Made by a program: the position numbers and the translations under genes. The notes under the pieces are model-generated. The model was given only the letters and a program-made list of their open reading frames with translations. It did no database searches and was not told where the DNA came from. DNA of 64,000 nucleotides from Romanomermis culicivorax (taxonomy: Eukaryota; Nematoda; Enoplea; Mermithida; Mermithidae), in NCBI GenBank assembly GCA_963922205.1, contig CAWUHX010000229.1, forward strand, positions 124,001 to 188,000. Direction: 5' to 3'. Of this stretch, positions 8,209-51,690 are shown in pieces (the stretch's first letter is position 1; the number at the start of each line of letters is the position of its first letter).

Positions 8209-9839
8209 TCAGCTAGCAGCTAACATGCTAATTAACGTCCGATTAAATCTTTCCACAAGTCCATCAGTTTGGGGATGGTACGGGATTGTCATAATCTTTT
8301 TCATGTTCAATAATTTGCAGAGCTCCACAACTACGGCAGATGTAAACTGTTTCCCTTGATCAGACAATATGGATTTAGGGGCTCTGTGTTGCAAAACAAC
8401 TTCCTCTAACAAAAATTCAGCTATAGTTTCAGCTGGACTATCTGATAATGCTTGACAATAACCCACTTGGATAAATATTCCGTGCACACTACTACATACT
8501 GATTATTGCTTTCAGTCTTTGGTAATTGCAAAATAACAATAGCAATAAGTTCGAATAAGCCCTCAACTGGAATATTCTGTATGGGTGACTTTGTTGCTGG
8601 ACCTCGCTTGACTGCTTGGCAAATTTCACAGCTTCAAACATAATCCTGAACATGCAGCCACAGGAATGGCCACGAATACTGTTCTTGAATCTTTTGCAAT
8701 GTCTCTTCAGCTCCCAGATGACAAGCAAATGCTGAATCATGAAAATACTGTAATATTAAGGGCTGCTTTGATAGTGGCACAACTAATTGCCTTCACTCGC
8801 CTCCTGGATTTGGTTTCCAATATAGCTGCTTGTCTTCCCCCACAATAAAGAATTTTGAATCTTTGATCACCTGTGCCCATGTAGAATCTGTGGGGGTCTG
8901 TCCGAATACTAAATATCGACACATGTTCAGGCTGAAGGGATCTTTCCACTGTTCAATGCTCCAATCTGAAGGCTACTCCTGCTCAAATTTCTGCTGCAAT
9001 TTATCATCCTGTAACTCTTCCCTTATTGTGGCTGCATTAGCTGTAGTAATGATTGTCCCCACCAGGGCACCATCTTCCCTTATTGGTCCAGCACAGCAAG
9101 ACTTTGAGAGACCAGGCTAAGACATGTGGTCTCTCTCCAGGAACTCTTCAAAGCTTAATGGCTTTTCCTCCTGTGGTTCCTCCAAGCACACTAGTGCCGG
9201 CTCTGCAGCCTTCTGTGACAGACCATCTGCATTACTGTTGGCAGTCCTTATTGATGGAATAGCTGGAATGTGTAAGATGCCAAGTCCTGCTGCCATCTAT
9301 GAATCCGCCCATTATTTTCTTTATGAGTCTTCAGGGCCATAACTGCTGAGCTATCTGAGACTAAATCAAATTGCTGACCAAACACATAAGGTCGAAACAC
9401 TTGCATTATAGCCCAATGCACTGCCAGCATTTCCTTGTCATTAATATGGCATCCTCGCTCACCCTCTGATAAAATTCTGCTGGCATAAGCCACTGCCCAC
9501 TCTTTCCCATCCTCCTGCTGAGCTAGGACAGCTCCTATTCCACGATCGCAAGCATCAGTACAGACAATAAAAGGCTTCGCTAACGTAATGTAGGATAATT
9601 AACAGCTTCTAATTTCAGCTCTTGAAATACATCTTCACACTCTGATGTCTATTTGAACTCATTCGGGGGTCGCTTTGCATCCAGCAGTGGTGCCGCTCTT
9701 TGTGTAAAATTGTATATGAATCGCCGATAGTATTGGATAAAGCCCAAAAAGCGGGCTAATTCTTTTTTGTTCTTCAGGGTGGGCCAATTCAAAATGGCTC
9801 GAATTTTCTCTTCATTTGGCTTAATTCCTTCTGCTCATC
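8209..9839 (-). pseudogene. Ty3/gypsy pol remnant: RT end, RNase H, integrase
   Basis: Read from 9839 downward, the order is the normal Ty3/gypsy one. First comes the RT thumb (frames containing ELARFLGFIQYYRRFI). RNase H follows at 9537-9248 with AYASRILSEGE, NDKEMLAVHWAI, FDLVSDSSAV and RWQQDLASYTF. The integrase zinc-binding region is near 8850-8740 (FHDSAFACHLG). The integrase core lies at 8700-8209, with SDQGKQF carrying the second catalytic Asp and the segment YHPQTDGLVERFN carrying the Glu. Stops and frameshifts interrupt every domain, and RT palm motifs, protease and gag are not visible. The LTR and leader at 10497-11716 lie upstream on the same strand, so this is probably one element with gag and most of RT lost. 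Confidence 0.85.
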
Positions 9840-14841: not shown

Positions 14842-17502
14842 ATGGATGAAGAAATTATCGAGAATTATGCTAGAATCAGGATATTTTCTAATCGTACAAA
14901 TCCTTTGGAAAGATATTCAGATATTCAGTTTTGATCTAGATATAAATTAACGAAAAACAACGCGATTCATTTGATATCCTTGCTAGAGGACAATTTAAAG
15001 CCAAAGACAAAACGTAGTTGCGCAGTTGAAGCATCTTTACAGGTATGACCAAAGACAAAATTTATTATGCAAATGAGCCAGCATTACAAATCAGTGAATG
15101 TATGGTACTGGGTAAATATAGGGGCTGGAGCAGGGGGTGGATTGCCCAACGAAAATATCTTTTTTGTATAATATTCAAGTTTAGCCGCTGGGGCTTCTTT
15201 TTCGATCATTGCAGTATCTTTTTTGATCTTAATGAGTTCCATTTTTGCTTGGTGTTCGCATTGCAAACATTCTTTCTGCAATGGGACAAATTCCAATCGG
15301 GCTTTGTTTTCATCATCACGGCCTGTTATAGTGCAGGCCAAACGGCGGATTTTCAGAGGATGAAGTTCGTTTGGGGGAGAGGGACTAGATAACGGCGTCG
15401 AGGAAAAAGGATCACATGACGTTTCTTAAAAAGAAGAGCAACAAGCTTTTGTGAGCTTCAAGGGCATCACACAGGGTGTCACAAGAGTTTCAGGATGGTC
15501 AGGCGGGTATGGTCGGCCACCCGGCATGACAAGAAGAGTGCTCTACTCATTTTGAGATTTCTCAGCAATGGAGGTTGATCCAGAAAGTTTTATGCCAATT
15601 GGGAAGATCATACTTTATTCTATGCATGTCCAATGCCAATGTCTGTACCAGCAAAAAATTTCTGGGTGGAGGGGACCAAATTGTAGCCCAAACATAGAAA
15701 ATTTTCGAAGAAAAATTGAAAGGCTCAGCTCGTAAAGTGCCTAAGTCAAATGTTAAAAGATACGGACTTAGGCACCTTTCGAACTGAGCCCTTCAATTGG
15801 TCTTTTGAAATTTTTGAAAAAAAACCATCGCTACCTTATATTTTTCTCTGACTTTAAGAATTTTAGGGGATCATTTGGGGGTCTGGAGGGGACGACCCAA
15901 CCTTGGGTGTGGTGTTCCCCTATCCCATTGTGCATGCATGCCAGGGCCTACCTACACCAACCCACGGCTCAGTAGATGACAGTATATATTATGCATGAAA
16001 TCTGGGAGGCATAACGCAGGGCGCAGACCCCATTGAGGTCAATTTTTTCTAAAACTAGCATGTTTGCATAAAGTGATATGCGGCAGAGGAATCTGATCAC
16101 TTAGCAATCTGCATGAATAAATTCACAAAATGCACGCATATGTATATGACTTTTTGTAGGTACACAATTCTTATTTCCAAATACATCTCTTGATAAAATT
16201 GACCTTGTGTTAAAGACAAAAAATATTTGTGGAACCGCAGGAAGCAGATTTATGTTCCGTGGTGACACCCTGTATACCCTTTACCTTGTTGCCCCTGATC
16301 ACTTGTTTGCATTTGTTGAATTTTTCCGCTAGCTTTTTCTTGATTAGAAGCTTGTGAAACGAAGGCAGCATCGCTATCAAATGTGCATGGTATTCGTTCG
16401 AATTGATTGGGAAGTAGTTCGAAAATTTTCCAGTAGACCGACAGAGGTTTTGGGGGTTCCGGACCACCACCTGCTGCCAAGGTCACTCTTTTATAATTAG
16501 CTATTGCTTTCTTAGCGTTCTAATAAAATCAAGCAAAAATTGGAGATGTAGTAAGTGAAACCATGCTAGTGCTGATTAGTTGTTTTGTGCACAAAAATTA
16601 TGCAAATTATTGCCAGTTTATCAGTGGTGGTTCATTTGCATGTAATCGTGTGGAATGTTCACTGTTTCTGCACAGGTTCCTCTTAGGTTCTGCTGGCCTT
16701 GCGGTATTTGGGCGCAGGATGCTTCCAAAGAGAGGATGGCGATCTGCACGGTCTGCATCAGTCGACTGTATCTCGAATTGTGCATCGAGTGATTTGTTTG
16801 ATTGCTGAACTTCGAGAAAGATTTGTCACTTTTCCCAAGCCAGAAGAGTTTGCAGAAATTACGCATGGTTTTGAACAAAAACAAGGGTTCCCCGGTGTAA
16901 TCGGATCATTGGACTGCACCCATGTCGAAATTTTGAATCCTGGTGGAACTGATTCTGAGTTATTTCGCAACTGCAAAGGGTGGTTTTCCATTAATGTGCA
17001 AATTCTTTGCGACCATAAGCTATTTATTAGAGACATTGTTGCGAGCCACAAAAGTAGCACACATGATTCACGAATTTTTAATGAGTCGGCTCTACGTACA
17101 AAACTGGAAGCCCTACCCAGACCCTTCCACGTGATTGCAGATCGTGGATACGCTTGCCATCGATTTTTAATGACCCCAGTTGTCAATCCCAGAACTCCTG
17201 ACGAATTCCGTTATAATTTTGTGCAGTCTTCCACGAGGATGACCATCGAAAGAACTTTCGGCATTTTAAAACGACGTTTCCCCTGCTTGTCAAAATGCAT
17301 TAACTTCAAGCCGGAAAAATGTTCAGCTGTGATCGTCGCTTGCGCTGTTTTGTATAACTTTGCAAAAATCAATGACGATATTTTTGATGAAAATGTTGAA
17401 AATCAGATTTTTGAGGATGAAGATCAACAACGGAAAAAGGATGATGATAATGCTCAGGGAGTAGCTAAACGACGTGCTATTATAGTTAACTACTTCAGCT
17501 AA
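14842..17502 (+). pseudogene. PIF/Harbinger transposase (DDE), two exons, one nonsense codon
   Basis: Exon 1 (14842-15042) starts at an ATG in an acidic N-terminus and contains RYKLTKNNAIHLISLL, the usual helical N-terminal region. It ends CAG/GTATGA. Exon 2 (16687-17502) follows CCTCTTAG and continues in phase: SLQ joins VLLALRYLGAG, the conserved family segment. The predicted 338-residue product matches the expected length. The catalytic triad is present: Asp in GSLDCTHVE (about 143), Asp in VIADRGYACH (about 219) and Glu in TIERTFGILKRRFP (about 255). The C-terminus is acidic. The only disruption seen is TGA at 14932-14934 in exon 1, which could be a true inactivating change, a sequencing error or recoding. 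The intron (15043-16686) contains two antisense exons of the Myb-like gene. Confidence 0.9.
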
Positions 17503-31518: not shown

Positions 31519-32214
31519 ATGACTATAAAAGCTGCTGCATATGCAGAATCTCAAGTTTTTAGGGACGGAATTTATAATATGACCAGTACCTCCCATGCTG
31601 ATGTTATTTCTATTGTAGCTAATGACCACAAGGTCGAAAAATTGGAAGAAGCTGTTGTGCAGCTGGAAAATCTGCTGAAAAGAAATGGAAATTCGTCTAA
31701 ATGGTGCAATGTGTGCGAATCAAGCACACACTTTATGCAAAATTGCTACTGCAACAATGAAATGACAAATCCCAACAATAACAATCGCCCGAATCCAATT
31801 TGTTGGATTTGTAATCGATGGCATCCCACAGCACTGTGCTGATCGCCTTGCTGGAATTGTGGCCGAACAGGCCACAAAACATTAAACTGAAATTAACAAG
31901 TATCATGATTATTATCAATATCAACAAAATAATCGTAATTTTCGACCACATCAGCAAAATAATCATAACTCTCAACCTAGTCATCAACAGATTTCTTGAA
32001 ATTTTTCAAATTGCTCACACATTTATAGAAATCATACTCAAAATTCGGTTTTAGAGAATGCAAATCAGCGAAATTCTGCCATAAATTCAATTGATTTTGC
32101 AGATGATGGTCTTTCTTTATTTTATCCAGAAATGCATCAACCACATCAAATAATTTCATGCATTTTAGATCGGCTTTGCACCTGCATGTTTTGTCCTACA
32201 CACAGCAAGAAAAT
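31519..32214 (+). pseudogene. Copy A gag remnant: zinc knuckles and Q/N-rich tail
   Basis: Gag packages RNA and builds the particle. The frame from 31519 matches the end of copy B's capsid region (a similar 'E..VFRD' helix) and then carries CNVCESSTHFMQNC and CWICNRWHPTALC. A TGA at 31840-31842 precedes a third knuckle beginning CWNCGRTGHK. After a frame change the sequence runs into a Gln/Asn/His-rich tail (about 31892-32100) with one TGA. The capsid N-terminus is missing, so the copy is 5'-truncated or rearranged. It lies about 0.4 kb upstream of the glycoprotein gene. Confidence 0.75.
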
Positions 32215-32620
32215 CAATACTAAGCCATCGGAAAAGATGGGACCAAAGCAACCGAACCAGTGGACTGATGACCAAGCTATGGTCATCGAACCAGCAGAAA
32301 AAGAGCGTCAACAATCATCAATTAGGAATTGACAAGCTAATGTTTGCTTTAAATAGGATTGAAATGGAAGCAGATGAAGAATTGGATCAAACTGTAAAAC
32401 AGAAATTGAAAAAGCATGCCTCAGCCATCAAACTTCAAAGGGCTCAAGTTTTGACCAGTATATATTTTATTTTACTTCTCCAACTCATATTTTTTCCTAT
32501 CTTTCAACTTTTTAAGCTTAAAGGAGGCATGGAAAAACCACATTCTCGACTGATCAAATATTGAAAATCCATTAACGATGGAAATCAATTTTCTTTAATA
32601 AAATAATTTTTAATTTCACA
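32215..32620 (+). other. Copy A gag-env spacer
   Basis: The 32268-32564 frame contains a charged helix (QTVKQKLKKHASAIKLQRA) followed by a hydrophobic run. Copy B has a different, acidic frame at the equivalent place. No function can be given. Confidence 0.35.
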
Positions 32621-34302
32621 ATGATTTTCATACTATTTTTATGTTTTCTGATAATTGTGGCCAATAAATATCAAATTTGTGGATCTTCTAATGCAGGAAA
32701 TTCCTTAGAGATACCTAAATGTAACATGTAAGCCACATACAAAAATTTTGAAACTTTATGCCCTTAATACATCACTTTATGTTCCTGGAACGGATCCTCT
32801 TATCTCCAATGCATTTAAGTGCTCTGTTAGAACTCGAACTATTGGTACAAATATGGGGTTTTTTGGTTCTAAAGGATTGTGGCAGATAAAGTTTCTACGG
32901 TTCATGTAACACCATCGAATTGTATAAATAACCAAAGCCTGTCATGATCAAATTTTGGTAAAAATGCATGATGGCTTGTGGTCAACAAACAAATCCTTAA
33001 CAGTCGATTTTTCATGGTGCTGCAAAGATATTTGCCATACAATCGACAATTTTCTTATAGAGGAAGGTCAAGTGGCATCCTGGGATGGTGTACTATTAAG
33101 CAGTGACCTTGGAGATTTAGGGGGATGCATACCCAATGCTGGACAATGCATAAATGATGAAAGTACTGTAATTTGGAACCAAACTATTTTTTCAAATTTT
33201 TGCCCAGTAATTTATAAGGACACCTATAAAGCTAAAATTAGCAGCAGTTACATTATCATTGACCAAATTCAAGGAGCTTTTAAACTAAAATCTTGGTACT
33301 CAAATTGTCCTGAAATTCTTGATGCTGTGTTCACCCATCAAGGAGTAGTCTTTCAGATTGTAAATGAGTACAACATGCGAGAACATGATGAAAAAGTATC
33401 AAATAATTTTTCCTCTGATCCCACAAATGCTAAACTCAATTATCTGGAAAATAAAATCATACAAAGTTAAGTCGATAATTTTTGGTATGTTGGCTCAAAA
33501 TGTGGTGGCTCAAAAACATTTAAATATAATTTGGCAGTTACTCCTTTTTGATCCTACTCTTGGGATACGTGCTTCACTGCAAAGGCAAGACGTAATAGCT
33601 GATTTTACTGGTGAAGTCACAACCTTATGGCCCTGTAAGCCTGTAAAAGTGGACAAGATCTAAGACAATCATGAAATAAATTTAACATGCTTTAAATATT
33701 TGGCAGTTTTGATAGGAAACCAAACAATGTTTGTTGTCCCAGGTGGCTCTGATCTGACCAATTTCAGTCCAAAAGTTGACTGTGATCACCAACCTGTGGC
33801 TAATCTTAAGAAAAGAAAGCACTGGATGACCCAAACTGGACCTATTCACATTAGTAATATACCCATTGAACTTTTATGGAGAGGTCAGCACGAAATGTTC
33901 CATTTCAATACCCCATCAATTTTTCACGTCAAATTAAGCTGATCTCCCACCAGCTTTACATTTTTACGTCAGTATTTATTCAAGACACATAAATTAGAAT
34001 TGATCTTGAATAACTTAGTCAATTACACATCAACTAATTCACTTGATCCAAACTCAGTTTATAATGTACTTTCTGGAACCGGAAGTGAAATCAAAACTGC
34101 TGCAGAAGGTATTGGACAATCTTCTGAACATGTTTTTAAAATGGAAGGTGATATATTATCAAACTCATTTGGAAGTTTTGTAAAAGCCCCACTTCAACCT
34201 TTACTCAATATCCTTATCATACTGTGCATAATTTTAGCATTTGGATGTCTTGCTTATCTCATTATGTTACAATATCTAAGACAAGAAAAGGGAAAGCTAT
34301 AG
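32621..34302 (+). pseudogene. Copy A envelope glycoprotein (class III, chuvirus-like), decayed
   Basis: Starts at an ATG with a hydrophobic signal-like segment, then a Cys-rich ectodomain. Landmarks in order, shared with copy B: LEIPK near the N-terminus, GFFGSKG, WSTNKSL before a Cys pair, IEEGQVASWDG, LGDLGGC, a 'VIWN..C' segment, an 'IIIDQIQGAF' strand, IWQLL, LWPCKPV, and a C-terminal transmembrane helix (LLNILIILCIILAFGCLAYLI, broken here to segments) near 34200-34270. The motif order resembles chuvirus-type glycoproteins, which are known as captured env genes in some insect LTR elements; that assignment is from memory of the family. Breaks include TAA at 32729-32731 and at least three frame changes. 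The gene sits between gag and protease. Confidence 0.68.
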
Positions 34303-34685
34303 CTATTGATTTCTCAAATCATTCACCCAAAAATAATAATTTATTACATGCATTATTAGAAGCATCCAAGAAGAAAAAACAATCCAAACAAAAATTCATA
34401 TTTTTCAAACGAAAACCTAATTACGGTATACAATTTAACAGAAAATGTGATCCTGTAAATATTGAAGAGGAAAATGTTGCTAGTATTGATTTTCCACTAA
34501 AACGCACCCCTCATGTTATTTTTCTGATCAATAACTGCATCACAGCTAATGCTTTAATTGATACAGGTGCAGTTTGTTCATTAATGGATGTAAAAACTCC
34601 TAAAATGCTCCCCAATCCCCAATTTGTAATGCTTTCGCATCATTCCAAAGGCTATCTTCAATCGACATCATGCCTCGTGTACTGA
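34224..34685 (+). pseudogene. Copy A aspartic protease, truncated
   Basis: A lysine-rich N-terminal region (with LLHALLEAS, matched by QALLELAS in copy B) leads to the catalytic loop ALIDTGAVCSLMD. The frame overlaps the 3' end of the glycoprotein frame and is -1 relative to it. The protease is cut shortly after the active site. The frame runs directly into the RT catalytic region (SCLVY then TGA at 34683-34685 where YLDD is expected), so the protease C-terminus and RT fingers/palm appear deleted. In the intact family this enzyme would cleave the polyprotein. Confidence 0.8.
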
Positions 34686-35644
34686 AATGATATCCATATG
34701 TTTGGTAAAAATTTTAATGAAATGCTTGAAAGACTCCAAATCATCCTGGATCATTTACAAAATGGAGGCATGAAATTACGCTTGGATAACTGTGAATTTC
34801 CTCTTCAAAAAATAAGATATTTGGGTTACCATATTTCTGCCAAGGGAATTAACCCTGACAATGCCAAATTAGAAGCTATCAAATCAATCATGAAACTGAA
34901 AACACCAAAAGATGTAAAATCATTTTTGGGTCTAATATCCCACTACAGAAAATTCATGAAAAATTGTGCACAAATATCAAATCCCCTAACAAAATTGCTC
35001 AAAAAGGGAAAGAAATTTACATGGGGTGATGAACAACAAAAAGCATTTGAATTCCTAAAATCCAAACTCATTAATCCATCAATTCTGAGTCATCCCAATT
35101 TCTCAAAACCTCTCATCGTCCAGACAGATGTGTCTATTAATGGAATTGGAGCTGTCTTGAGCCAAATCAAAGATGACAATAAAGAGCATCCTATAGCATT
35201 CGCTAGCCGTACACTAAAATCTGCAGAAAAAAATTATCCAATAACAGAATCAGAAGCACTGGCTGTAGTCGAGTTCGTCAAGTATTTTGGACCATATCTT
35301 TATCAACATGAAGTCACTGTTCACACTGATCATACAGCTGTGAAATCAGTCCTTGGAGAACTGAATCCATGTATCGCATTGCAAGGTGGGGACTTGCATT
35401 AGCAGACACTAAAGTGAATATAATCCCAAGAAAAGGTAACAAAAATTTAAATGCAGATGCTCTATCGAGATTGCCTAATGAAAATGGCCGACAAATTTTC
35501 GACATTGAGCAAGATTTTGTATCTTTTCCGAATCAAAAAAATATAAAAAAGAGAGAAGTGTTGAAACATTGTATGTACAGGTTAATACAGAATAAAAGCA
35601 AGTATTTAATCAAAAATTTAGCCAAAACGTTTGATATGGAATAA
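34686..35644 (+). pseudogene. Copy A reverse transcriptase end and RNase H
   Basis: In frame with the protease remnant. It starts at the RT active-site loop (a decayed YLDD), then NGGMKLRLDNCEF, RYLGYHISAKGI and FLGLISHYRKFM of the thumb/connection. RNase H follows with IVQTDVSINGIGAVLSQ, AFASRTLKSAEKNYPITE and VTVHTDHTAV. A frameshift near 35375 moves the end (RWGLALADTKVNIIPRKG, NADALSRLP) to the 35369-35644 frame. These are canonical Ty3/gypsy motifs. No integrase follows; the element ends or is truncated near 35645. Confidence 0.88.
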
Positions 35645-37360
35645 ATGAATTTTTATTCTGTAAAGCTGCAAAAAGCTTGAACAACCTCCAGGTTTGAATG
35701 AACAACCAAATATTTAGGTAGACCATTTAAGGTCATTTTTGATAGAACAGTTATAAATGGTCGATAATCCTGTTTTGTTGGTGACCACATATCGGCCACA
35801 TGTATATAAAGATGAGAAAACTGTTGGAGCATCACATATACAGGTTGGCAGTGTGTGATAGGCGCTAATAGAAAATGTGTGTTAAAAACCAGATCGAAGA
35901 TAAGCAAGGGCAGTGCTAAAATCAATATTTATATCTTTCAATCTTAAAATAGCCTTTCAACCTGTGATTATTATGTTTCAACAGAAAAGTTGAAAATATG
36001 TACATAGTTGGTTTTCAGCTGGTACCATAGAACAGTAGTTAAATCATTGAAGACAATGCTTAGCCTGTTCTATTTTTGTATTTTTTCATCCTTTAAAAAA
36101 TACTTTTTTTTCAACAAAACAAAAAAAATTGTAATTTATTTAAGGTAATTTGAAAAAAATTGTGAAAATGCGGTCTAATGGCAGATAACTTCTGGTTCCT
36201 CTGTCATTAAACCACACAAACAAATTTAGACGAAATTTTTATATATATTGGTGTCAAGGAGTGTAAAAATTTGTATAATTTTTATGTAAATTTTTGCAAA
36301 AATATATATTCTATTTATTCCTCATTTTCTCGTCACATGTACCATATTAGTAATCCATTAGTACTCTTTATTGTTTTCGATAATCTGGGTTCCCAGTTGG
36401 AAACCAGACTATTTTTCAAGTACTTTGTTTTGACACATTTTTGCACTCGTAATTTACTCAGCATGAAATGGAAAGGTTGACACATTCTAAAACAAAAAAC
36501 ACATTTCTTCAAAATACAAAAATGAGTTCAAATGCTTTTGAACCCTCCAACAATTTCGAAAATAATTCACATGGCAGGTGCTACTGTACTCTAACGCACA
36601 GCAGGGTTTCCAGAACCACGCCCCAAGATGATGGATGTCGACTCAAAAAATGGAGAAGATTTGGGTCTTTGGGTTTTTACGTGATTACGCTCACTGCTTT
36701 TAGCAGTTTTTTCTTTACACGATTTTGCTCCCTTGCATCTTACAGTCTGTTGGACTTTGCAACAATTTGCGTCTCGTTTTGAGGCAATTGTGCTGCCTAT
36801 ATACTTTACAGGATTCAGGCTTCAAAACCAGCCATATACCTGCTTATCAAAAATTGTCATCCATTACCTGAAAACGTCCATTATTTTCAATTGATTTATT
36901 TGTGTCAACCTTATACATCAATTGCTACGCACCACCCTCGCATATCTTTGTCAGCCTTCATAAATATCGCCTTATCCACATTATTTACTGTAAGTTATCA
37001 AAAAAATCCCAAAAGCTCAAGAAAGGCTGTGACATAAATCTTGGTGACCTAATAACAGGGGTTAAATTGAGAAAAACAACGAACCTTTTCAAATTTTCGC
37101 AGGGACATATTTGATTGTCCCCCTTTTTCTCAAAAAACATATTTTTGTCTTTTTTCGATTTTCTGATAATTGGCGTGGAGAAATCAATTCGATTTCTCCC
37201 TTTGCAAAAGAAAGCAACTTTTCGATTCACATAAATATTTTTTTTCGGTATCATAGCTGGGTTTTCGTACCTACAAAATCTGGAAAACAAACATACAGAA
37301 ACCCTAAGTGGAACATTTTTGCGCATTGAACAAGAAGCTAAAAGTCAAATTATCGGAAAA
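35645..37360. other. Region between copies A and B, no LTR identified
   Basis: A 3' LTR of copy A and a 5' LTR of copy B would be expected here. No repeated pair with TG/CA ends was found by eye. The 35653-35925 minus frame (90 codons) has no recognised motif. The rest is AT-rich. Confidence 0.4.
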
Positions 37361-38484
37361 ATGCCTTTTCAAAATCCCGACCCACTTGGTCATGTTGTTC
37401 AGGATGCATTAGCTGCGGTCTTGGATCAAAGGCTTCGAAATCTTGAAGCCCCAATGAACAGAAAAGCAGCCAATACAGAATCAATCATGAATGAAATTCG
37501 AGTAAATCACTCGCGTGGTGACATGCTTTCTGCCAAAATTAATGATTTTCAGTTCTTTTCTGGGCTGCCCATGAAAACTTTACCGAATGGGCCAAAAAAC
37601 TCGAAAAACAGATGATTTTGAAAGGGATGAAAAACGAAGATGATCAGCTGGAAAGAATTTTTTTGGAGTTTCACCTTAAAGGTGACGCCCTAATGAAATT
37701 TGAAAATTTTTCAAGTTCCGAGGACCCACCCACTGACTACGAACAATATAATGTTGCTTTGGAACAGGCATTCCCCAACCAACGGGACGCCTTGTTTAAC
37801 AGACAAAGTTTAAAAGATCGAAAGCAAAAAAGAACAGAAACAGTAACGACCTATTCCAAAGAACTTGACAAAATGGGAAGGCTCGCCTACCCTACTCTTG
37901 ACACAAATGCAAAAAACACAGTTCTTGAATCAAGTTTTTTAGATGGGCTTCAGGCAGATGTCCGAAAAGCCCCAAAATTTAAACATTTCACTAATCTAAA
38001 CCATTTAATTTAAGAAGCAACTTTCATGGAACAGGAAATTTTGCGGGATGAGGCCAACGTGGTCTTTTCCCCTTCAGCCAGGTACAACGTTGGGTTGCAA
38101 GAGCTCGTTCTTGCTTTGCAACCCTCAGGAAGTCACACATATAAACAAATCCATGAAATAAATGAAAAATTAAATAAATTATGCATACAGATGCAGCAAA
38201 ACGTACAACCAAAGCAACATGCAAATAGAAAATCTGTCACCTGTCATACGTGTGGCAAGGTCGGTCATTTTGCCCGTGAGTGCAGGTCTAGACTGCAATG
38301 CGAAATTTGTGGGCAAAATGTTCACCCAAAAAAATGACTGCAGATCAAAATGCTTTCACTGTAAAAAACGGGGCACAAGAGCAAATTTCGTAGGCAGTTG
38401 AAAGATGTCGAATGCTACACATGTAAAGAAAAAGGGCATATGAGCAGCAATTGTCCCAAAAAAATCAAAAAACCAACAAAATAA
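37361..38484 (+). pseudogene. Copy B gag: capsid and four zinc knuckles
   Basis: Starts at ATG 37361 (MPFQNPDPLG). A capsid region of the retrotransposon-gag type follows (ENFTEWAKKLEKQ, FLEFHLKGDALMKF, DYEQYNVALEQAF, TYSKELDKMGR), then a basic linker and CCHC knuckles. CHTCGKVGHFAREC is perfect, CEICGQNVHPKKDC good, a third is broken, and CYTCKEKGHMSSNC is perfect near 38413-38454. Breaks are a frameshift near 37560, TAA at 38011-38013 and indels around 38335-38400. The last frame ends with TAA at 38482-38484. This is the fuller of the two gag copies and defines the family as Ty3/gypsy-like. Confidence 0.85.
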
Positions 38485-38584
38485 CATTCAAGGGTGCCCT
38501 CTTGATGGTGATGACCCTGATTTAATTGCAGAAGTCAATCATTCATCACAACATTGCTTTTTTGTAGGGTCCTTATTTTCGATA

Positions 38585-39130
38585 TTGTTTGACGAGGAGT
38601 CTGAATCGCTTGACTATGATGATTCACCTACACCAACGTGCAACTTAGACACCGGCCGTCCGGCAAGTCAATCCTCAGACAGCGGCCAACCAAGAACACC
38701 ACGCTCATCGTGTTCTGATGAGGAAATGAAAATAATACAAGTGGGCAAAAAAGAAAACTGTGCCCCACGATTGGAAACATCACAAGTTGACAGCAATTGG
38801 CACAATGACAAATCAAACGTGGCCCCACTGCTCGAAAAGTTTGGGATTCCAAGAATCAATAGACAACCCAGGGTTCCATTGTTGGCACCCAGCTCCTTGG
38901 AGCCAAACATGGCAGCATTTCAAGAGGAAACTCTCCCAAAACCTATTTGGGGATGGCTAGGTAAAATCAATCTGGACAAAAGAAGCTGGCATGCACATAT
39001 GATAAAACAAAAATTTTTTCAGAGTGTTGCAGAAGTGACCGTTATTGCCCTTGTAACCAATGCAAAAACAAATACATGCAGACCCACAAGGATCGATGAA
39101 AAGCTGCCAAGGCCAGAAAGGCTTGATTAA
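38585..39130 (+). CDS. Copy B acidic spacer frame between gag and env
   Basis: An uninterrupted 181-codon frame, opening with TTG rather than ATG as far as can be judged. It is rich in Ser, Asp, Glu and Pro in its first half and basic at the end, with no hydrophobic segment or known motif. It lies 100 bp after gag and ends just before a TTGCAG acceptor-like site. It could be a gag extension, a separate accessory protein, or part of a spliced leader. It is open while the neighbouring gag and env frames are broken, which argues for either chance or recent constraint. No homologue was recognised in copy A. Confidence 0.4.
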   Translation: MFDEESESLDYDDSPTPTCNLDTGRPASQSSDSGQPRTPRSSCSDEEMKIIQVGKKENCAPRLETSQVDSNWHNDKSNVAPLLEKFGIPRINRQPRVPLLAPSSLEPNMAAFQEETLPKPIWGWLGKINLDKRSWHAHMIKQKFFQSVAEVTVIALVTNAKTNTCRPTRIDEKLPRPERLD

Positions 39131-39148
39131 ATAAAAAAATTCTTGCAG

Positions 39149-40856
39149 GGATTTTTTTTCATTTGTGCATACTATTCTGTGTATTTTTGTGCCCCGTGGC
39201 AGGCGGACAAATAAAAACGTTTCAGTTTTGTGGAACTTTGACCAGTGGTCATGCCATAGAAATCCCAAAAACTGTTACACATGTTAGGCCACCTTCGAGT
39301 AAAAATCTGACTCTTGTCACAGGGCAGGTCTATACACCTTTGGCCAAACCCAAACATACAACAGAGTTCAAGTGTACCCTTCGGACACGAAAAATCTGTA
39401 CACAAGTTGGGTTTTTCGGCTCAAAAAGTATAACTCTTGACCAAATTTCCATAAAAATTTTGACCCCTTTTGAATGTAAAATAGCAATGGAAACAAAAAC
39501 CTTCCAGGGTCAGTCTGTGAATGAAACTACTTCTGACATTTGGTCAACAAACAATAAACTTGATCTACAGTATAAGTGGTGCTGTTTCGAATAACTGTCA
39601 AACAGTAGAAAAGTTGATTGTAGAAGAGGGACAAGTCGTCTCTTGGGACAGCAACAATGTTTTCAGCACCCTAGGAGATTTGGGTGGTTGTAAAGCAAAC
39701 ACCCACCATTGCATCAAGGCCGATGGTTTCATAGTGTGGGAAGAAACCCCTTTGGCAAAAATTTGCCCATTCCAACTCAAAAACTTGTACAAAATCAAAG
39801 TAAGTGGGTCCCACATGGTCATTGATGATATGCAAGCAGCATTTTTTGTTACAAGTAACTCGTTTGGGCACCCAAATTGCCCAGAACTCAAAAACGCGCT
39901 TTACACTGAGCAGGGCATCGTGGTTCGGTTCGACCCATCAAATTTTACATAAAGTGAATCCAGTAAACAAATAAGTGCTCTTTATACGTATAATAATGCA
40001 GAGTTTGACCCCATAAATTTAAAACTCAATTTTCTTAAAGAAAAAATACATAATTTCAAACTGCAAGGTTTTCAAAATGTGTGGAATGTACTTTGCCGCC
40101 AAAACCAGCGCCACCTGGACTTGATATGGCAGTTGTTGCACCTGGATGCAACCCTTGGAGCCAGAGCTTTTCTCCAATGAACTGACATCACAGCAGAATT
40201 TACAGGAGAGGCCATAACCCTATGGCCCTGTCATCAGATTAATGCCTCTGTGGTGTATAAAGATCACAAAAGTAATGGGACTTGCTTCAAAAATCTTCCG
40301 GTGGTGGTCAATAACAAACTCATGTTGTGACCCCAGGTGGCACTGACCTCATGGAAGAAAGTCAGAAGGTCGAATGCAACCATATGCACGTGCCCCTATT
40401 CAAAATTAATATCACTTGGTCAGTAAAACCGGAAAAACCCATGTTAGCAAGATCCCACTTGAAGTGATTTGGAACGGCAACTTCACAGTATTCCATTTCA
40501 ATGCACCACCCCTTTTTTATGACAAGCTGGTGGCGGTGTCGACCAGCTTGACTTTTTTGAAACAATACATGTACAAAACACACAACCTGGAACAAGTTGT
40601 GGACAGACTAATCAATTACATATCCGAAATGTCTCTTCACTCCAGTCCCATGTAAGAAGTTCTTTCAGGGAGCAACCATGCTCTTGGCCACACCCTTTCA
40701 GGGGCTGGTCAAGACCTAGAACATGTAACTGTGGGTACTCAACAAGGTATGACACAGGGTTTAAACAATTTGCTCAAAGGACCCCTTCAAATGTTAATTA
40801 ATTTGGTGGTCATAGTTGCAACTATAGTTGGACCCTCTATGTGTGCGTTTGGTTAA
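39149..40856 (+). pseudogene. Copy B envelope glycoprotein (class III, chuvirus-like), decayed
   Basis: Begins after CTTGCAG with a hydrophobic signal-like segment (CILFCVFLCPVAGG); no ATG starts the frame, so a spliced leader could supply it. Landmarks match copy A in order: AIEIPK, GFFGSKS, ECKIAMETK-like segment, WSTNNKL before a Cys pair, VEEGQVVSWDS, LGDLGGC, 'FIVWEE..C', VIDDMQAAFF, IWQLL, LWPC, a LPVVVNNKL segment, and a transmembrane helix (INLVVIVATIVGPSM) ending at TAA 40854-40856. Breaks include a frameshift near 39590, TGA near 40177-40180, and further frame changes around 40320-40420. A captured membrane-fusion protein is the likely origin; its position before protease-pol is unusual. 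Confidence 0.7.
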
Positions 40857-41464
40857 GGGGGTGCTTAAACTTTACAAGACAAACAAGAAACATCAAGTAT
40901 GAGGTACCAACAAGACATCAAAATCGATCACAAAGGCAACCCCTACCCCCCAGTTTGGGTCAAGCACTGTTAGAACTGGCAAGTATGCAAAGTCCCCATA
41001 CTAGCCACAGATACATTGCGATACTGGATCACCAAGCTCCTTCAGCCCCGAAATTGGAATATATAAACAGCATGAAACTTCATGATCAGAGCACCCCTAA
41101 TGTAATTGTAAATAAGCAGGTTCTAGCTAATGCTATGGTTGATTATGGAGCTACTTACATGATAATCGACAAGAAAATCACAGATAAGATTGAATATATT
41201 GAAATTAAACCAACAACTGTTGTACCCATAGCAGCCAATAATTTAGGTGTGGAACTTGTCGGTTCGACTTTCATCACTGTGCAAGCGGGCGCAGAAAGTC
41301 AAACCCTGTTAGCATATGTACAAGAAAATTGTGCTGCTGACCTACTTCTGGGTTCAAACTTTTTGTTTCGGTTTAGAGAATGGTCAATAAACAATGAAAA
41401 AAGTTTTGTGCGACTTGGAAACATGACCATCCCATGCACTGGCGTACGGTATCATCCCTTATGA
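40841..41464 (+). pseudogene. Copy B aspartic protease
   Basis: A 207-codon open frame. The active site is altered: the expected DTGA is VDYGATYMIID, so Thr is replaced by Tyr. The flap region has PIAANNLGVEL, and the C-terminal family motif DLLLGSNFL is intact, giving a complete retropepsin-like domain of normal size. The frame overlaps the glycoprotein end and is -1 to it, as in copy A. A short Pro/Gln-rich linker precedes the domain. Presumably it once processed a Gag-Env-Pol or Pol precursor. Confidence 0.8.
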
Positions 41465-41524
41465 AGACGTGGTGGTATTCATGTGGATCAAAATCTCATT
41501 TTGCCGCCCCATTCAGTTACCTAA

Positions 41525-42001
41525 TTGTCCGTTCCCGTTTTGGACATGTATAAAGGCATGCCTCTGGTTCAGTTTGAACCCAATGACACCCTAGTTGGAA
41601 AAGCAGGAGCTTGTTTTGCAGCTTCATTCTCGCCAAATATTGAGGGCAGAATTCGAATTTCGGTTATGAATCGTCTAGCGGATGAAATAAAGCTTTTTCA
41701 AAATACTTGTGTGGGCAGCGAAAAAAATTTCGTTCCAAAAACATAAAAAATTCATAGCATACAGCTTGAAGAAGCAAAAACCGAAAACATAAATGAAAAG
41801 CAAGATTTCAAGATATGGTTGGTTGATAATATCAATTTGACCAATACTGACCTCAATGGAGAAGAGAAAAACATGATTGTGGAAATTCTAGCCCAATATC
41901 CCAACCTGTATGCTACCAATAAGTCTAATGCGGGTCGTACTTTGTTAGTTATACACACAATTGATACACAGGGTAATACACCAGTGAAACGACCCCTTTA
42001 A
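41525..42001 (+). pseudogene. Copy B protease-RT linker, truncated before RT
   Basis: Two frames (41525-41746 and 41819-42001) carry segments typical of the region between protease and RT in Ty3/gypsy: EEKNMIVEILAQYPNLYATNKSNAGRT and HTIDTQGNTPVKRPL. The expected RT start does not follow; sequence similarity is lost at about 42000. Copy B therefore lacks RT, RNase H and integrase. Confidence 0.75.
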
Positions 42002-46184: not shown

Positions 46185-46795
46185 CTCCATTCATCCCATC
46201 CAAGGTCAGGCCCCCTATATCTCACCCCCAGCTGAGGACAAATGGAGAATAATCGTGCCAAACAGGGCATCACAGTTAACATTACTAGAACTTTATTCAT
46301 CCCATCCAAGGTCTGGGGCCGTCTATATATCACCCTTAGTTAAAAACAAACGGAGAATAGTTGTGGCAATCAGGGTATCACAGTTGACATTACTAGAACT
46401 TCATTCATCTCATCCAAGGTTTGGGACCCTATATTGTACCCTCAATCAAGGACAAATGGAAAATAGACATGCCAAACAGGGCATCACAGTTGACATTATT
46501 AGAACTCCATTTATCCCATGGCCCTGTATATCTCACCCCCAGTTAAGAACAAATGGAGAATAGTCCTGCCAAACAGGGCTTCATATTTGACATTACTAGA
46601 ACTCCATTTAATCCATCCAAAGTCTGGCCTTTTATATCTCACCCTCAGTTAAGGACAAGTGGAAAATAGTCATCCCAAACACTGCATCACAGTTAACATG
46701 ACTAGAACTCCATTTATCCCACCCAAAGTCTGGCTCCCTATGCTTCACCCCCCAGTTAAGCATCAATGAAGATTAGTTGCACCAAAGGTTAGTAA
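46185..46795. repeat. Minisatellite, six units of about 106 bp
   Basis: Units begin 'ctccat' or close variants at 46185, 46291, 46399, 46505, 46602 and 46708. Each contains 'atcccatccaaggtctgg', 'tatatctcaccc', 'aatggagaatagt', 'aaacagggcatcacagtt' and 'acattactagaact'. Spacings are 106, 108, 106, 97 and 106 bp, the short one owing to a small deletion. The 149-codon frame across it is a by-product. Confidence 0.92.
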
Positions 46796-49149: not shown

Positions 49150-51690
49150 ATATTGCTTCTTACTATTTTTTAGTCTCATTTGCTTTTTTCCCAAAAATAA
49201 ACGCATATTCAAACATTGGCATAAAACTGGGACCAACATCATTGTTAGAAAAACTACAAAAATTGCAATGGTCACTGATATCAGAGTTTTATCCAGTCCA
49301 TTTTTAAAAAAAGCACTGAATATATCACTAGCTATATTATATTCTAATGACTCAGTTCTATTAGTTCTAGTATGTTCTATTAGTTCTATTAGTTCTAGTT
49401 ATTTAAGTGATCTTTCTGTACATAAATCAATGTACCAGCAATTATGACAACAGAGTCACTTGCTGGACATTTCACATTACAGCTCTCATATATGACTGAC
49501 CTGCCAAATATAGGGGAAACAGTATAAGTTTTGCCCTCTGGTAAACATAAACTTGTAAAACTTATATCACTACATGAAATATGGGCTAGACCTTCTCCAA
49601 AATCAGTCTTACAGACATGTTCCAATTTGGCTCCATTCAGACAATTGTAGCATCCTTCAAACATTATCACCTTGATTCCACACTTGTTTTCAAGTATTTT
49701 AATAACTAAATTGAAACCTTTCAAGTCTAGCTGTAGTTGCAGTGATGCTATACTATTTAAATCTCCTGAGACATCAGTACCTTCTCCTATCAATGTAAAA
49801 CCATGCATCTTTAATCACAAAGGATACTTTTTTCTTTCTCAAACTTCTTCTAATGAATGATCATCACAAGTACACGCCACTTGGGTCTCTCTCCCTTGAC
49901 ATTGACATGGATTAGGTGGAAGGTAACAGTCAAAATTTTTAGCCTTCACCTGATTAGCACATTGAAATTGACATATACTTCCTGATATAGGTCCACAAGC
50001 TGCTGATGCTTTGACAATAGCTGTCCTTTTTTTATCAGTTAAAAACTGACTTGCTAGTAATCGTGTCTGTGGAGAAGTTACAGTAGGTATGCTCATTTCC
50101 AAGTTCTTCCATTCTGCTGATGTCCCAGGTCTTAATGTGAAACTTTCGTGAGCCTGATTGTTATTACATTTTTATCTCGATGTTTTCTTTATTTGATAGT
50201 CCATTTTGGACAGGAAAACACTGGATAAATTCTTTTTGACAAGGGCTTAGCATAAATTTGATAGAAAAGACATAAAGATAAACAAGAAAAAACAAGCTGC
50301 ACATTCGCATGATTCTATGCAGTAAGTATACTCTGGATACGAATTCTTCTTCATCAAGTTCTGATATTTTTGTGTCAATTTGAGTATCCACACAGATGTC
50401 ACCTGTACATGATCCCATTGAAGGACATCTTCTTGAGCTTTTAACATGCATCTTTACTGATCTAATTAAATAATCACTATGCACACTACAATGTAGCTTA
50501 ATCAGAACAACAGAAACAGCTAAATTTCCAATTGAGTTATTTTTGTGGTCTTTGATCAAAAGACACAAATCTTGTCCTTGAGGTACTGGAGATAATCTTG
50601 TTGTTTCTGTCGAAGTACAATCAAGTTTTTTATCTTTTGCTTCACTACAAACTGATTTTTCAGCCCTCAAGCTTACTACAGTGCTCAGAAAGTATTAAAA
50701 ATACCACAAATAAGCTTATGATGAACATTGTCTATATGTAAATATTGGTCTTGACCTCAATTTTCTTTTTATACAACAATACTTTAGAATAAATCAGGTA
50801 AATTTAACTGTGATTTCAATACATTCAACAAAACTTTCAGCATTAGAAAGATAATCTTTAGAATAAAATATAGTGCTCTGGAAAATATCTATGTTATTAA
50901 ACAAATCAACAATAAATATTCAGTAGGACTGCACTGGGGATTATGAAGTAACTTTAAACAAAATATGCATTTCACATGCTCACAAAAGCGTTGAGCTTCA
51001 CAGGATTCACTAATCGTCTTCTGCATTACTCCATTCACCCATATTCCTAGTACAAATTCATTTTTGTACAGATCAACATCTGATGGAAAGAGCACAACTT
51101 GCTGCTTCTTAGGGAAACTTGTCTCATAGCAATAGGGTTTTGAACAAATTTCTATCGCATTGATATCCTCTTCCAACTCAACTAATGCACCTACTTGAGT
51201 GCTTTTCACTGAACAGGAAGCAGAGTTGGGATGGCTGAACAACGAATCATTTGATTTGTATGCAAAATAAGTTATCTTAATGCTTCCCCACACTCTTAGA
51301 GAAACTGTTCCATCTTCATTCACAAATTTCACTGTCACCACTGAATCAAAATAATGAAAAGTTTTTCCTTTTCCCTGAACAGTACAATAGAATTGTTTGC
51401 CAAACTCAAGGGTACCCACAATATGTGGGTCCTCCACCACCCAAACCTAATGTCCTTGTGGTCCTGTTTCATAAACTAACTGAAATCTTTAATCAAATAC
51501 CTTTCACCATTTGCCAATTCGATTTGATTGGACTCATCTATAGACTTTATATCTGATCATTTATCAGTTTTATCAAATGAACATACATTTGGAGCTGATC
51601 TTTCCAAAACCTGCTTATAATTTTTTGGAAATATAATATTAACATTTTCCAATACAGCATTGCTATTTTGCGCCCTCTTGCACCAGAGGC
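49150..51690 (-). pseudogene. Fusogen of the phlebovirus Gc (class II) type, decayed
   Basis: In order on the minus strand: an N-terminal piece near 51690-51450; a Cys-rich segment (KPYCYE, then CEAQRFCEHVKCIFCLKLL) to 50889; VKSSRRCPSMGSCTGDIC and, after a frameshift, YPEYTYCIESCECAAC, which matches the fusion-loop region of phlebovirus Gc; a CQCQGRETQVACTC segment (50102-49839); then GCYNCLNGAKLEHVC (49808-49395), the Cys pattern of the C-terminal ectodomain. A final frame encodes a transmembrane helix (TLISVTIAIFVVFLTMMLV) and a basic tail near 49300-49150. At least four frame changes separate the pieces, one at a 'ttctattag' repeat (49350-49400). Such genes occur as env in BEL/Pao and other LTR elements. 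The carrier element here is unknown. Confidence 0.78.

Follow-up and report, generated by a model that had tools for sequence, protein, structure and literature searches.

Ty3/Gypsy-like elements of the nematode Romanomermis culicivorax with an envelope gene in frame between gag and protease-pol

A stretch of 64,000 nucleotides of Romanomermis culicivorax, a mermithid nematode and obligate parasite of mosquito larvae, was analysed (GenBank assembly GCA_963922205.1, contig CAWUHX010000229.1, positions 124,001 to 188,000 of the forward strand; hereafter the window, whose own numbering is used below). Two diverged Ty3/Gypsy-like copies, A and B, were located head to tail on the plus strand within 11 kb, and both are decayed. 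In each of them the order is gag, envelope gene (env), aspartic protease (PR) and reverse transcriptase (RT), which an earlier note made from the letters of the window had proposed and which was confirmed by the placed parts of both copies. Searches of the host genome support gag-env-PR-pol as the native order of a many-copy lineage.

Copies A and B in the window

Copy A begins with the broken C-terminal part of gag (31522-31893), in which CCHC zinc knuckles lie at about 31700-31893 and the segment 31798-31893 is 78% identical to P0037, an R. culicivorax database protein that comes from a different A-type copy and contains its gag knuckles, its linker and its env. The gag-env linker (32144-32456) was recognized in pieces with 46-75% identity to P0037 and P0034 and is followed by env (32603-34299), which is broken by insertions and deletions and runs from the signal peptide to a C-terminal transmembrane (TM) helix and a short tail; its middle piece is 41-45% identical to env of six copies from three other families. 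A remnant of PR (34470-34595; 36% identity to copy B PR) and the end of RT with ribonuclease H (RNase H) follow (34656-35476; RT_RNaseH_2, 7.8e-38; Ty3 RT in PDB, 1.4e-33). Deletion seems to have removed most of PR together with the N-terminal portion of RT, as RT of the relatives aligns only from its later part. No integrase (IN) was found beside copy A when the integrases of four intact relatives were used as queries, and a candidate minus-strand integrase remnant at 35653-35928 was rejected, matching neither a Pfam model nor any of these four integrases.

Copy B, also on the plus strand, begins with a 5' long terminal repeat (LTR), aligned over 36252-37014 at 77-79% identity to the LTRs of three intact copies of the same family (the B family), and a primer-site-like TTGGTGACC lies 3' of it at about 37041. 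Both copies had been located correctly in the earlier note, except that copy B starts, with this LTR, about 1.1 kb before its gag. The gag gene (37361-38334) has one internal frame change, carries its knuckles at 38251-38334 (zf-CCHC, 5.8e-7) and is 86-90% identical to the three B-family copies in its first and last parts; the gag-env linker (38444-39127) is 67-68% identical to the linker of the same three copies. Env (39133-40850), again broken by insertions and deletions, extends from the signal peptide to the TM helix. PR (41057-41461) is 90% identical to that of B-family copies and matches gag-asp_proteas at 2e-5, below the curated cut-off, and PR of a related copy, L036, matches the same model above the cut-off (2.6e-8). 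The last part of copy B is the PR-RT linker with the start of RT (41747-41998), where the copy breaks off, the whole piece being 83-87% identical to six B-family copies.

Env of A and env of B are colinear, and their pieces are 30-58% identical in amino-acid sequence. Between 28 and 46 kb, a search for direct repeats (at least 40 nucleotides, seed 14) detected neither a repeat linking A and B nor an LTR pair. Because env identity is only 30-58%, the two copies are separate old insertions and no segmental duplication, the origin that the earlier note had named as damaging to its proposal.

Intact copies in the genome

When the genome was searched with copy B PR, 150 scored matches were obtained among 2,671 first-look candidates, and 37 of the 150, counted by hand, sit in an open frame of at least 2,400 amino acids (aa). 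Nine copies on nine contigs were chosen for long frames, with 5' and 3' pieces, and belong to four families, namely the B family (C10, C175 and C130), C230/C32, C23/C110 and C115/C6, the last three with PR identities to copy B of about 58%, 52% and 42%, respectively. In all nine, PR is contained in a stop-free open frame of 2,514-2,687 aa, and tblastn placed gag, linker and env upstream, and RT, RNase H and IN downstream, in the same frame. Pfam was run on one copy per family, the five remaining copies being placed by tblastn only. In the gag-linker pieces zf-CCHC and Retrotrans_gag were matched in all four families (the latter above the cut-off in three), and in the pol pieces RNase H and both integrase domains were matched in all four and RT in the three pieces containing RT; at E 0.01, only related gag, capsid, knuckle and integrase models were matched besides in the gag-linker and pol pieces. 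The intact architecture is Gag (capsid, four CCHC knuckles)-linker-Env-PR-RT-RNase H-IN. At four of the eight loci around the best PR matches (L003, L005, L007 and L008), Env, PR and RT are stop-free in one frame; L001 is copy B itself, and the other three are broken.

The nine elements span 9.2-10.1 kb. Their LTRs measure 808-1,033 bp, start with TGT, end with ACA and are 99.55-100% identical within each copy, a 4-bp target duplication flanks eight of the nine copies, and a primer-site-like TGGTGACC and a purine-rich tract occupy the expected places in all nine. LTRs and integrase, by which the earlier note had suggested that its proposal be checked, are therefore both present in the nine intact relatives. 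The stop codon precedes the 3' LTR by 31 bases in C115 and C6 and by 9 bases in the B family, and lies 5-15 bases inside it in the other four copies; since the frame stops at the edge of the 3' LTR in all nine copies, there is no env 3' of the integrase. As the LTR pairs are nearly identical and the elements are in good order, the lineage was recently active. The features by which Ty3/Gypsy elements are recognized were all found, namely the PR-RT-RNase H-IN order, a Ty3-type RT, TG...CA LTRs, and a gag capsid with CCHC knuckles.

To describe the order across the list of PR matches, 20 of the 150 were sampled at near-even steps down the list (one step was moved by one row), broken copies included; being drawn with copy B PR, the sample covers relatives of that protease. 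Gag, env, PR and RT were found in this order on one strand in 18 of the 20, the exceptions being L041, without gag, and L037, without RT within the stretch, and env was 5' of PR in all 20. When env and RT of copy A served as genome queries, 150 scored matches were obtained for either one, and in the 20 open frames paired by hand between these two lists (by contig, strand and frame length) RT was always 3' of env; the paired frames include A-like families with frames of 2,405-2,765 aa (C357, C49, C23, C202 and C52).

These counts bear on the idea that the order is a local accident, produced by one rearranged element or by its segmental duplication. Both window copies are broken and they lie within 11 kb of each other, as such an accident would have it, but the divergence of their env pieces and the recurrence of the order in all nine intact copies, each on a contig of its own, and in 18 of the 20 sampled matches make it next to impossible. 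The statement of the earlier note that rearrangement of a single copy is improbable was borne out by the same counts, and an arrangement with gag, PR and pol adjacent and env elsewhere was seen in none of the 29 copies examined.

Some variants were observed in the course of these searches. L032 (contig C211) is a deletion form, in which most of env is gone, gag joins the end of env, and the open frame measures 1,374 aa. RT relatives with 56% identity to copy A lie in open frames of 3,042-3,100 aa, longer than those of the env families (C24:296984, C27:1044476, C56:1131610, C548:16901 and C372:97248). Matches to env or PR are regularly spaced by about 8.4-8.6 kb on C180 (404, 8769, 17134), C283 (177561, 186155, 194753), C2 (2953080, 2961481) and C81 (874129, 882521); this spacing, approximately one element minus one LTR, reflects either tandem proviruses with common LTRs or an assembly artefact.

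Envelope glycoprotein, kinship and neighbouring features

Env of the four families matched the Pfam model PF24664 (Monjiviricetes_fusion) at 4.6e-20, 1.3e-16, 6.3e-19 and 5e-20, the last being env of an intact B-family copy, with scores of 60-72 bits against a cut-off of 27. We take the PF24664 glycoprotein to belong to class III, the type of fusion protein carried by chuviruses and mononegaviruses. In the genome, PF24664 gave 68 matches, all above the cut-off, and none in any of 14 control genomes. When four env pieces of the window (two per copy) were compared with Pfam, 33664-33939 of copy A matched PF24664 at 2.2e-4, below the cut-off, and the other three, including both pieces of copy B, had no PF24664 match. 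One of three env sequences also matched Borna G at 9e-4, below its cut-off, and herpesvirus glycoprotein B was matched by three at 0.0095 to 0.085, again below the cut-off; these matches may point, weakly, in the same direction. A profile search with the middle of env, among proteins of similar length, retrieved five proteins, all from R. culicivorax; the N-terminal piece of env had no match in the protein database, env gave nothing below E 1 against PDB sequences, and the AlphaFold model of a window env piece had a mean predicted local distance difference test (pLDDT) score of 39.

Identity between the families is 58-62% for env, 56-62% for integrase, 37-53% for gag and 69-79% for RT-RNase H. 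For env, the proportion of nonsynonymous differences (pN) is 0.25-0.28 and that of synonymous differences (pS), at saturated sites, 0.75-0.81, a pattern that resembles integrase and indicates that the Env protein stayed conserved while the families diverged.

In a tree of RT-RNase H with 38 rows, which contains hardly any named relatives, the four families, copy A and five database proteins (P0001-P0004 and P0025) form one group (support 100/99), in which P0003 branches within the four families (97/46) and P0001 next to them (95/89). The placement of these five proteins suggests that the lineage also occurs in other genomes, where it would be known from RT-RNase H. No relatives were confirmed in IMG/VR.

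In retroviruses, and in errantiviruses such as gypsy of Drosophila, env comes after pol as an open reading frame (ORF) of its own. LTRs, gag, pol and an envelope gene are common to these groups and to the Romanomermis elements, whereas the 3' env ORF of errantiviruses and Retroviridae was found in none of the nine copies. Env is expressed as a separate ORF in other gypsy-like elements (PMC6431247), and the envelope genes of BEL/Pao elements such as Roo, Tas and Cer-7 lie downstream of the polyprotein (PMC7642597). Anakin-type BEL/Pao elements of mosquitoes carry a chuvirus glycoprotein (PMC7642597; name from PMC10084718); they share with the elements described here an LTR structure and a captured glycoprotein of the chuvirus kind, and differ in having a BEL/Pao pol, where the Romanomermis elements have a Ty3-type RT and RNase H. 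According to PMC10084718, Gypsy elements showed no clear capture of a glycoprotein, and simple repeats flanked two insertions of Jingchuvirales glycoproteins in Nematoda.

The closest layout is that of Burro (GYPSM1) of planarians, giant Gypsy-like elements of more than 30 kb with LTRs and an ORF1 of 4,873 aa, which carry MATH, BIR, ankyrin, BCL2, SUMO-like and dUTPase accessory domains and an env that resembles the fusion glycoproteins of arthropod and fish mononegaviruses (PMC6431247). Burro and the present elements are both Gypsy-like, with an N-terminal CCHC Gag and env in frame between gag and PR-pol in one ORF; the host here is a nematode, and the elements measure 9.2-10.1 kb with frames of about 2,400-2,765 aa. 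That the elements are a nematode branch of Burro, and no independent case of the layout, would agree with the position of env, its in-frame fusion and the similar viral kind of env (PMC6431247); however, in the eight pieces scanned (gag-linker and pol from four copies) Pfam detected no MATH, BIR, ankyrin, BCL2 or dUTPase domain, nor any other Burro accessory domain, and the elements have about one-third of the size of Burro. We lean against this kinship while giving it an appreciable chance.

The earlier note had suggested an undescribed group. The many-copy lineage is real, and no description of such elements in Romanomermis or other nematodes was found in the accessible literature outside Repbase; the words 'Gypsy' and 'envelope' are absent from the text of a paper on the genome of another mermithid (PMC10989877). 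The layout itself had been described from planarian Burro (PMC6431247), and what is new here is a compact, multi-family and recently active nematode form of it.

Other features were recorded in the window. A broken bunyavirus-like glycoprotein gene, perhaps the envelope of another retroelement, lies on the minus strand at 49395-51446, with a Phlebovirus_G2 match (4.7e-24) in 50164-50694, a weak Phlebo_G2_C match in 49395-49814 (0.0074, below the cut-off), and no such match in 50889-51446. A third Ty3/Gypsy element on the minus strand (8221-9834) has RT-RNase H and integrase pieces with 28-45% identity to the env families and their relatives. A 271-aa open frame on the plus strand (16687-17502) encodes a DDE_Tnp_4 transposase (2.3e-32), presumably Harbinger-like, and is surrounded by the arms of inverted repeats (10594-10683/21228-21317 and 11549-11687/20231-20369). 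Five head-to-tail copies of a repeat, spaced by 97-108 bases, occupy 46185-46733.

Proposed expression as one polyprotein

An unusual strategy for expressing pol had been expected from the order of the genes; pol can do without a frameshift, since it shares its frame with env in the intact copies. We nevertheless considered that Env is translated on its own, either from a spliced message or after internal initiation, with a -1 ribosomal frameshift linking pol to env or gag. The env frame of copy A stops just after a slippery-looking heptamer and PR continues in the -1 frame, and R. culicivorax gene models join the linker to the middle of env. The heptamer, however, is not kept in copy B, the RNA after it in copy A folds no better than shuffled sequences (z 0.14), and gag, env and pol of the intact copies share one frame without an intervening stop; the env-PR frameshift hinted at by copy A was rejected on this last ground. 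Splicing into the middle of env, as in the models P0034, P0037 and P0038, is not supported by the acceptor context, as no AG immediately precedes the join in the three families inspected for it. Separate production of Env with a frameshift for pol is unlikely on these grounds.

Since gag, env and pol share one open frame, two needs arise: Env has to enter the endoplasmic reticulum (ER), and Pol has to be kept out of it. In both C10 and C230, the hydrophobicity threshold was exceeded by a segment at the Gag/Env border and by another where Env ends; besides the border segment, no further segment passed the threshold in the gag-linker and pol pieces scanned. From these hydrophobic segments at the borders of Env, it is most likely that a single polyprotein is threaded through the ER membrane, leaving Gag and Pol cytosolic and Env lumenal. 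One mRNA would be translated into one polyprotein, the Gag part being synthesized in the cytosol. At the Gag/Env border, the hydrophobic segment would act as an internal signal peptide that threads Env into the ER lumen, and the segment at the end of Env would stop transfer, so that PR-RT-IN would be synthesized in the cytosol. Env would then be freed on the lumenal side by signal peptidase, and Gag and Pol on the cytosolic side by the protease of the element, after which enveloped particles could move from cell to cell. Flavivirus-like polyproteins, which are cleaved by signal peptidase and by their own protease, offer an analogy. In hepatitis C virus (HCV), the core ends in the signal peptide of E1 inside one polyprotein (PMC5402940); the polyprotein of the present elements would work in a similar way, no kinship being claimed.

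The explanation that we consider probable, as a whole and with its parts taken jointly, is that a Ty3/Gypsy lineage captured a chuvirus/mononegavirus-type fusion glycoprotein, which lies in frame between its gag and PR-pol, that this lineage would express a single membrane-threading polyprotein, and that copies A and B are old, broken members of this recently active, env-carrying lineage.

Several points weigh against this explanation. PF24664 was matched only in its central part (approximately profile positions 292-469 of 653), the saturation of synonymous sites allows no reliable ratio of nonsynonymous to synonymous substitution rates (dN/dS), and C230 has no target duplication. In C115 only the terminal segment passed the hydrophobicity threshold and in C23 neither did, the scanned piece of C23 ending inside the helix and its signal-like stretch being seen by eye only; the scan left out the PR stretches of C230, C23 and C115. 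A virus making Gag, Env and Pol in equimolar amounts would be unusual, and a splice or an internal start could exist; the beginning of env is missing, as though it were an intron, from the gene models P0034, P0037 and P0038.

A bolder reading, which we regard as doubtful, is that these are endogenous copies of enveloped nematode retroviruses, possibly infectious from cell to cell, without separate expression of env, in which the single threading polyprotein would deliver Gag, Env and Pol, with Pol as an extension of the cytoplasmic tail of Env. If this were true, packaging of the enzymes could be tied to Env and not to Gag.

In the usual view of retroviral logic, env comes last and on its own message. 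With a second animal phylum in which env lies inside the gag-pol frame, in elements that are compact and very young, the Burro layout is no quirk of a giant planarian element, and the main polyprotein can house an envelope gene whose protein stays conserved. One worm has many near-identical copies, so that release of the glycoprotein from the middle of a polyprotein should be directly observable in RNA and protein data.

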